A stretch of 64,000 bases of DNA, from contig JAFMBH010000002.1 of assembly GCA_017858735.1 (NCBI GenBank), forward strand, positions 85,363 through 149,362, read 5' to 3'. This document shows positions 23,752 to 63,270 of the stretch, piece by piece. The notes below the pieces were generated by a model. The model was not told where the DNA came from. It saw nothing but the letters and a program-made list of their open reading frames with translations, and searched no databases. Position 1 is the first letter of the stretch. Every line of letters starts with the position of its first letter. Source of the stretch: Bacteroidota bacterium (GTDB taxonomy: Bacteria; Bacteroidota; Bacteroidia; Chitinophagales; Saprospiraceae). The position numbers and the translations under genes were made by a program.

Positions 23752-23790
23752 TTCACAATAGACATGTGACCCCTCCGGGGTCAGGACACT

Positions 23791-23892
23791 ATTTAAAAAT
23801 AACCTTTCGAATCAAACCAACGACGTTATAGTTAATCCTCGAAATCCTGAAAATCCTGATTCAAACCAATGGCTGCTGCGCGCAAAATTTCC
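23791..23892. repeat. Half copy (right arm) of the 212-bp dispersed palindromic element
   Basis: atttaaaaataacctttcgaatcaaaccaacgacgttatagttaatcctcgaaatcctgaaaatcctgattcaaaccaatggctgctgcgcgcaaaatttcc is nearly identical to 24088-24190. Confidence 0.9.
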
Positions 23893-23947
23893 CACTAAGA
23901 CTGAGGGAGTTGCTTGTTTTTGGGGGATGTTTCCTGTAACTAATTTT

Positions 23948-24159
23948 GAATCAGGATTTACAGGATTTCCAGGATTACAGAGGACGTCTTCGTTTTTAAA
24001 GTAATGGTGATTTGTAGATTATTACTTTACATCCTTCTTTTCGCCGATGCGTAACGCATCGGCGAGGGGCCGGTAAATGAAAGCAAGATTTAAAAATAAT
24101 CTTTCGAATCAAACCAACGACGTTATGTTTAATCCTGGAAATCCTGAAAATCCTGATTC
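23948..24159. repeat. Full copy 1 of a 212-bp MITE-like palindromic element; conserved flank continues to about 24200
   Basis: 30-bp TIRs at 23948-23977 (gaatcaggatttacaggatttccaggatta) and 24130-24159 (taatcctggaaatcctgaaaatcctgattc), complementary at 29/30; central palindrome cgccgatgcg-taa-cgcatcggcg at 24042-24064. Confidence 0.9.
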
Positions 24160-24297
24160 AAACAATTGGCTGCTGCGCGCAAAATTTCCACCCAAGCATG
24201 CGTGCTTAGTATTTTATTTTTCCTATTATCGAAGGGCTGGTATCCTTTCGCGAGGGTAGTCGCTCTTTAAAGGCTTGTTGGCTTCACAGCCCATTTT

Positions 24298-48965: not shown

Positions 48966-49371
48966 GGGGACGTTCTGGTATCGACAGGATGGTGAACTTG
49001 TAAGTAAGCATGTCGAAACTTGATGGTTAGTTCCGTTATCAAATGGCCATCGAAAAACAACCGGCGAAAATAACTACGCCTTGGCTGCCTAATTTTAGAA
49101 ATTAGTAAGCCTTTACACGAAACGCCTGCTATTTTCAGCTCAGCTGATATAGCCTGCACGCCGCCTGAGAGAGCCTGCGTCTAGTGTATCATCCAAAAAA
49201 TCGGGCTGGTTTTTCTTTGTGGCTCATAAAGAAAAATAAGATTCAGAGCTGGGTCAGAAAATGTGTCCTTTGTTGTACCTACCTTCTGATTGAGATCAAA
49301 AACGGCAAATAAACATGTAGAAAGCTTACGGGTGCTGTTTTGGACGCGAGTTCGACTCTCGCCGTCTCCAC
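48966..49371 (+). ncRNA. ssrA: Transfer-messenger RNA (tmRNA)
   Basis: 5' ggggacgttctggtatcgacagg; 3' ggacgcgagttcgactctcgccgtctcca closes the tRNA-like acceptor/T-arm; tag ORF 49063-49092 ggcgaaaataactacgccttggctgcctaa = GENNYALAA*. Confidence 0.96.
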
Positions 49372-49392
49372 AATGAACATTACATTATTTAT

Positions 49393-55895: not shown

Positions 55896-56107
55896 GAATC
55901 AGGATTTGCAGGATTTTGAGGATTAAAGAGAACGTCTTCGGTTTGGGTGTAAGGGTTATTTGTAGAGGATTACTTTTTACACTTCTTTTCGCCGATGCGT
56001 AACGCATCGGCGAGGGGCTTAGCAATGAAAGTACCATTTAATAATAATCTTCAGAATCAATCTAACGACGCTATGGTTAATCCTAGAAATCTTGTAAATC
56101 CTGATTC
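55896..56107. repeat. Full copy 2 of the 212-bp MITE-like palindromic element; conserved flank continues to about 56155
   Basis: TIRs 55896-55925 and 56078-56107 (26/30 complementary); identical 23-bp central palindrome cgccgatgcgtaacgcatcggcg at 55990-56012; same 212-bp length and same hairpin offset (94 bp) as copy 1. Confidence 0.9.
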
Positions 56108-60408: not shown

Positions 60409-60527
60409 TGTAATGAAATATTAGATGACACAATGAGCTCCCGGATAATACGACAAATGAGATAAACCCCACTTTAGAGGTAAACAACACTAGCAGCCTT
60501 TCTCCCGAAAGCTTGAACGCTTTTTCA

Positions 60528-60703
60528 AAAGGCAGGTCTTCTGGCTCATTTTAAAATAGACACCTTCCCATTTGAAAAACAGTGGTGTATCGTCTATTTT
60601 TTATATACTTTTTATAGCATATCAAAATTTACAGCTACGGGGATAGCTCCTGATTTAAACAGGATTCCCTTTTAATTCCGCTTGAACGGAAACCAATTGA
60701 ACC
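60528..60703 (-). promoter_or_regulatory. Cobalamin (B12) riboswitch
   Basis: Minus strand: ggttcaattggtttcc...aaaagggaatcctgt...caggagctatccccgtagctgtaa...cactg...gggaaggtgtc...atgagccagaagacctgcc, the conserved cobalamin aptamer blocks including the B12 box. Confidence 0.93.
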
Positions 60704-60704
60704 T

Positions 60705-60712
60705 CAAATATA
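60705..60712 (-). promoter_or_regulatory. Candidate -7 element upstream of the cobalamin riboswitch
   Basis: Minus strand tatatttg (TAnnTTTG) immediately before the aptamer. Confidence 0.45.
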
Positions 60713-63184: not shown

Positions 63185-63270
63185 TTTGAATAAGGATTTT
63201 TAGGATTACAGAGGACGTCTTCGATTTGGGTGTAAGGTTTATTTGTCGAGGATTACTTTTACTATTCTGC
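63185..63270. repeat. Partial, degenerate left-half copy of the 212-bp dispersed element
   Basis: tttgaataaggatttttaggattacagaggacgtcttcgatttgggtgtaaggtttatttgtcgaggattactttt aligns with the left arm of 55896-55975 and then diverges before the central palindrome. Confidence 0.8.

Follow-up and report, generated by a model that had tools for sequence, protein, structure and literature searches.

The 212-bp palindrome analysed here is, on balance, probably a non-autonomous, gene-less (MITE-like) member of an undescribed family of palindromic elements linked to a nuclease. It lies in a 64,000-nucleotide stretch of a Bacteroidota contig (JAFMBH010000002.1), referred to below as the window. Its ends are shared with small units that carry a GxxExxY nuclease gene. 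The linkage holds for one clade of these proteins and is spread over several phyla; in this genus, gene-less copies are amplified and differ in presence and number from species to species. We infer that these ends are a substrate of the nuclease, which drives their spread.

The initial annotation had described terminal inverted repeats of 30 bp with 29 complementary positions. Comparing the left end, GAATCAGGATTTACAGGATTTCCAGGATTA, with the right end in reverse complement indeed gives 1 difference in 30 positions, and three extra outer base pairs (TTT/AAA) also match, the true inverted repeat being 33 bp. The left end is composed of GAATC and CAGGATT units with a spacing of ~9 bp; copies of the family contain two or three end units, and the numbers at the left and the right are uncoupled. 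The central palindrome, given previously as 10+3+10, is indeed perfect and measures 12+1+12. The arms between centre and ends had been called partly complementary, and the left ACGTC box pairs with the right GACGT box. On folding, each strand formed one long hairpin (-98.5 and -90.4 kcal/mol for the two strands; z = -13 and -11), and none of 200 shuffled sequences folded equally well, which bears out the earlier proposal that the whole element could form a single hairpin. As had also been stated, the element contains no credible ORF; the window copy itself has no gene, and none was found inside the other 212-bp copies. A transposase in or beside the 212-bp copies was considered and rejected, none being present among the ORFs listed near them. 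The coordinates of the element, its parts and further copies in the window are given in Table 1.

Table 1. Features of the palindromic element and of related copies in the window.
Feature	Position	Strand	Remarks
Full T-core-T palindromic element	23945..24162	.	Earlier extent 23948-24159 plus 3 bp at each end
Left inverted end: TTTGAATC and three ~9-bp CAGGATT units	23945..23977	+	Kept in 34 aligned copies
Right inverted end	24130..24162	-	Sequence, alignment of copies
Inner ACGTC box, left arm	23983..23988	+	Present in 32 or more of the 34 copies
Inner GACGT box, right arm	24119..24123	+	Pairs with left ACGTC
Perfect central hairpin TCGCCGATGCGT-A-ACGCATCGGCGA	24041..24065	.	Two pairs show compensatory change
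Conserved outer flank A (ggctgctgcgcgcataatttcc...)	24163..24196	+	Common to many copies
Second full copy	55896..56107	+	83% identical; absent from initial annotation
Right half of second, tandem copy and A flank	23800..23899	+	91% identical to 24097-24196; absent from initial annotation
Left-half copy with outer flank	63185..63265 (about)	+	Absent from initial annotation

A scan of the window against Rfam gave no match above gathering score at the element; the matches elsewhere were a tmRNA gene and a cobalamin riboswitch (48966-49373 and 60514-60712). Directly 3' of the upstream gene, at 23766-23783, lies a palindrome, GTGACCCCTCCGGGGTCA, that is probably a separate small repeat or terminator and is also found near the RAYT gene of the same genome.

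A BLAST search of the own genome, proposed in the initial annotation as a check for further copies, returned 106 pieces, of which about 30 were complete or almost complete copies of 73-84% identity, along with many half copies. The family is present in all 7 genomes of the genus (the own genome and six sister species), with 31-50 matches in each; the full 212-bp element or its core was found in 0 of 54 genomes outside the genus. The closest relatives of the window copy are two full tandem copies in the sister species G001 (89-90% identical); a half copy like that at 23800-23899 precedes them. Copies are mosaic and often tandem, with an outer module A on one side and a module B, ending in a second hairpin H2 (GACGCGAxGCATCGCGTC), on the other; array units are spaced at about 93, 297 and 366 bp. 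The palindromic repeat H2, GTAGAGACGCGA..TCGCGTCTTCTCCCC, resembles a GTAG-tagged REP, occurs at 38 distinct sites and forms the outer end of many composite copies.

Thirty-four copies were aligned in a single orientation and showed 86% identity per column. The central hairpin, described earlier as invariant, is strongly conserved and yet varies at two pairs, both with compensation (CG in 25, TA in 7 and TG in 2 copies; GC in 31 and AT in 2). In this alignment no covariation was seen at the variable bases that separate the end units (columns 25/197 and 26/196). Since the ends are kept by sequence and without compensatory pairing, an end recognised by a protein fits better than a purely structural RNA. 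A role in RNA structure only was rejected on this ground. Of 24 copies with scorable gene context, 11 lie between convergent and 13 between tandem genes, and none at a divergent site. The earlier wording, a non-autonomous mobile element or a structured intergenic repeat, remains a fair description that is partly supported: the element is multi-copy and intergenic, differs in copy number among sister species, and has ends that also bound a gene-carrying form.

Gene-less ends outnumber gene-carrying units in the genus. AAA+PD-(D/E)XK, YefM/YoeB and restriction-modification genes adjoin the repeats there. Multi-copy AAA ATPase genes (AAA_35 or AAA-ATPase_like) are often next to T or H2 repeats, one of them with a weak NucS-C-like nuclease match, and in the own genome a YefM/YoeB toxin-antitoxin pair lies between T ends (L010 1711-2222).

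The end sequence GAATCAGGATTTnCAGGATT was found in 9 of 299 Bacteroidota genomes, with zero matches for the reversed control pattern. In 3 of the 8 other genomes (G127, G070, G323) it was located directly beside or around GxxExxY genes, and the associated gene is a PF13366/TIGR04256 member, well above the curated cut-off. The end type seen at the left of the window element also flanks GxxExxY genes in other phyla. The initial annotation had advised looking for a transposase gene bordered by this inverted repeat; a gene so placed was found, and it is a PD-(D/E)XK GxxExxY nuclease and not a transposase.

The linkage was then examined in reverse, with 80 GxxExxY loci fetched by protein alone and scored for the end; the loci were chosen by likeness to sequences partly found via the repeat. 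An end was present within 500 bp in 61 of the 80, a proportion (76%) that is not a whole-family rate because the query alignment included repeat-found genes. Shuffled motifs gave a mean of 2 and a maximum of 7 loci. The density of ends was 3.5/kb at 0-250 bp from the gene as against 0.06/kb at 2-3 kb, and the outermost ends faced inward (46 vs 5 upstream, 36 vs 10 downstream). In a stricter test with the 17-bp consensus TTGTCTGAATCAGGATT, allowing up to 3 mismatches within 300 bp, 59 of the 80 loci had an end on at least one side, and inward ends were present on both sides in 38. The corresponding both-side counts were 0 of 29 for other GxxExxY genes, 0 of 29 for four-helix IVP genes and 0 for shuffled motifs. 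Four-helix-bundle IVP genes, which had been suspected as carriers, were rejected, with an end within 500 bp in 0 of 30 loci.

The bounded gene-carrying units are 451-779 bp long, mostly 451-680 bp, with four Pontibacter units of 564-572 bp. In each, a single gene is enclosed by inverted ends, (A)TTGTCTGAATCAGGATTTnCAGGATT(t)nAGGATTnnCAGGAT, and the ends usually lie within about 100 bp on both sides of the clade genes. No other gene was present inside the T pairs examined outside the genus. Tandem arrays of ends flanking GxxExxY genes were noticed in G001 and in Dolichospermum (L117 816-1424 and 1792-2349; L116; L212 3514-4013), the Dolichospermum array having six 81-bp units. Named phage records gave no match, and among plasmid records there was one match, on a Persicobacter megaplasmid, without T ends.

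GxxExxY proteins occur in 153 of 299 sampled Bacteroidota genomes, about half. The end was found at 2 of 29 GxxExxY genes of a best-scoring sample, and the 30 best family matches in Bacteroidota genomes mostly lack it. In a tree of 120 GxxExxY proteins, which is short (125 columns) and leaves many forks open, end-linked proteins made up 55 of 62 rows in one clade and 2 of 31 in the other deep clade. The label requires 18 changes on the tree against 39 when shuffled, and 0 of 500 shuffles were as low. The phyla represented among the labelled rows are Bacteroidota, Cyanobacteriota, Fibrobacterota, Balneolota, Ignavibacteriota, Spirochaetota and Binatota; single labelled contigs from Bacillota and Pseudomonadota MAGs may be binning errors. 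The linkage of end and nuclease is clade-specific and extends to six phyla or more. With the link limited to one clade, the GxxExxY family as a whole was rejected as carrier.

The gene-carrying unit contains one gene of 125 residues in about 500 bp. Residues E27, D66, E76 and K78 are invariant and fit the active site of PD-(D/E)XK nucleases. A model of a Pontibacter member of the clade had a mean pLDDT of 93.3. Its best PDB match was SSO0001 (4ic1; E 2.9e-5), a Cas4 protein, followed by lambda-exonuclease-type enzymes; by sequence, no related PDB chain was found at E 0.1. The clade nuclease is thus predicted, from the model, to have a Cas4-like fold. We know of no PD-(D/E)XK protein of this kind that transposes DNA alone.

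Within the genus, 212-bp elements lie on both sides of GxxExxY genes in two sister genomes (G006:C69 and G001:C88). The own genome carries an intact GxxExxY gene (C69:31786), so that candidate acting genes are co-resident with gene-less copies. Two inward variant ends (GAATCACGGATT) are upstream of this gene and one is downstream. Its homologue in G001 has four ends upstream and four downstream, in tandem arrays with units of 183 bp (upstream) and ~139 bp (downstream), the downstream units containing the 3' end of the gene. A second GxxExxY gene of the own genome (C175:19082) has degenerate ends. Genomes of the genus contain the variant end 8-63 times each. In G006:C56 (L115), several GxxExxY start fragments stand in a row around one intact gene.

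Copy number was compared across species. At locus J, the number of T-core-T units ranges from 0 to 2 across seven species. G075 lacks an island of ~800 bp that in G070 comprises palindromes together with a GxxExxY gene. The flanks of the homologous G075 site are 95% and 89% identical to those of G070, and this short site keeps TGATCAGGATTTTC, so that a T-like target and a deletion scar are indistinguishable here. At locus B of G006 (L261), outer flanks A and B are joined without T-core-T, and the junction is inexact. The comparison of occupied and empty sites that had been recommended showed differences in presence or absence between species but no exact empty site; in the own genus, larger blocks distinguish the species at loci G and J. 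Ends often stand in tandem arrays, and much of the copy-number change looks like tandem duplication. A target-site duplication, also sought on the earlier advice, was not detected in four clean GxxExxY units of ~565 bp. The 212-bp copies have outer flanks in common, which makes their ends unsuited to a clean check for such a duplication.

A mechanism can be outlined from these observations. The nuclease would recognise the repeated end, as a sequence in an extruded hairpin or cruciform, and would nick or cut it, and the break would be repaired by copying or by replication-linked recombination. Gene-less palindromes could in this manner spread in trans, with new units landing in or beside older ones, and the 212-bp form would then persist between genes, as a repeat on their 3' side. 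Weighing against this reading are the lack of a target-site duplication at the four clean units and of an exact empty site, the excess of gene-less ends and the other genes beside them in the genus, and the resemblance of much copy-number change to tandem duplication, as well as the fact that no PD-(D/E)XK protein of this kind is known to transpose DNA alone. In its fullest form, which we advance only tentatively, this would be a minimal mobile element having a single Cas4-like PD-(D/E)XK nuclease as its sole enzyme. The nuclease would recognise iterated CAGGATT ends in palindromic DNA and, through cut-and-copy repair, carry both itself and gene-less palindromes across phyla, with no recognised transposase or integrase and no target duplication.

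The strongest rival, which we regard as rather unlikely, is that the repeat is moved or amplified by other means (another recombinase, slippage during replication, or template switching at hairpins), with the nuclease travelling as a passenger, perhaps one of defence or toxin-like function that lodges in such repeats. In its favour, gene-less pairs are common, AAA+PD-(D/E)XK, YefM/YoeB and restriction-modification genes are neighbours of the repeats in the genus, and ends frequently form tandem arrays. It accounts poorly for a link that is found in one clade across many phyla with close ends on both sides and that fails for the sister clade and the IVP genes, and for T pairs that, outside the genus, enclose no other gene.

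The palindromes could alternatively be REP/BIME-like intergenic repeats, now immobile, whose hairpin is selected as a transcript-end, mRNA-stability or chromosome-structure signal. Strong folding of both strands, compensatory changes in the central hairpin and the location of copies after genes (convergent or tandem, never divergent) are consistent with such a signal, although the lack of divergent sites may only reflect harm to promoters. We judge this improbable, as the arms outside the centre do not covary, the ends are conserved in sequence, and these ends are common to gene-carrying units of other phyla while the 212-bp core was seen only within the genus. Mobilisation by the RAYT of the genus, a single-copy Y1_Tnp (TnpA-REP) gene, is highly improbable. 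A Y1_Tnp match is present in 6 of 7 genomes of the genus, syntenic in several, and another repeat in the vicinity, GTAGAGACGCGA..TCGCGTCTTC, resembles a GTAG-tagged REP (cf. PMC3733652). Against it, the RAYT gene is bordered by neither T nor central-hairpin nor H2 motifs, and T ends flank GxxExxY genes in many phyla; the RAYT gene, not being flanked, was rejected as mobiliser. A nuclease-linked family of which the window element is a gene-less member remains the reading that we prefer.

GxxExxY proteins are without known function, and the linkage gives one of their clades a candidate substrate. If the nuclease moves the repeat, the system would resemble a transposon based on a Cas4-like fold, with a bearing on the recruitment of Cas4 and related nucleases. 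Such movement, if true, would also explain why the repeat apparently fragments draft assemblies of the genus, in which many copies are near contig ends. No literature linking GxxExxY proteins to a repeat was found, the proteins receiving only passing mention, and the repeat sequence was not found in the literature.

Several known systems may be compared. Integron cassettes are bounded by attC sites, which have terminal RYYYAAC/GTTRRRY core sites and are used by an integrase; the GAATC/GATTC ends of the element appear unlike the attC core site. The end-linked gene is a member of the GxxExxY proteins (TIGR04256 / PF13366 PDDEXK_3), but this family is described only as a member of the nuclease superfamily, and most of its best-scoring members have no repeat. 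Rpn / Transposase_31 PD-(D/E)XK proteins are nucleases linked to RecA-independent recombination (PMC5350276) and provide an example of this fold promoting DNA mobility; they are a different family. Casposons and Cas4 nucleases (PMC4046053) resemble the present family in the predicted Cas4-like fold, whereas here there is no Cas1 integrase and only one 125-residue gene. With MITEs (PMC10969869) the element shares small size, absence of an ORF, inverted ends, multiple copies and ends in common with a gene-carrying relative; it differs in that neither a transposase nor a target-site duplication was found and that its copies frequently form tandems and mosaics with further repeat modules.

REP/BIME palindromes together with RAYT (TnpA-REP) genes constitute REPtrons (PMC2817692, PMC3733652). 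There, as here, a short palindromic intergenic repeat is present in many copies, inverted pairs surround a small single nuclease gene, and gene-less copies outnumber gene-carrying ones. Here, in contrast, a PD-(D/E)XK (Cas4-like) protein stands in place of an HUH Y1 transposase, the repeat forms the iterated 30-bp end of palindromes of 80-250 bp, and the RAYT of the genus is not flanked by it. The element family is thus best read, by analogy, as comparable to REP/RAYT in its logic, with an unrelated enzyme, and not as a member of REP/RAYT.
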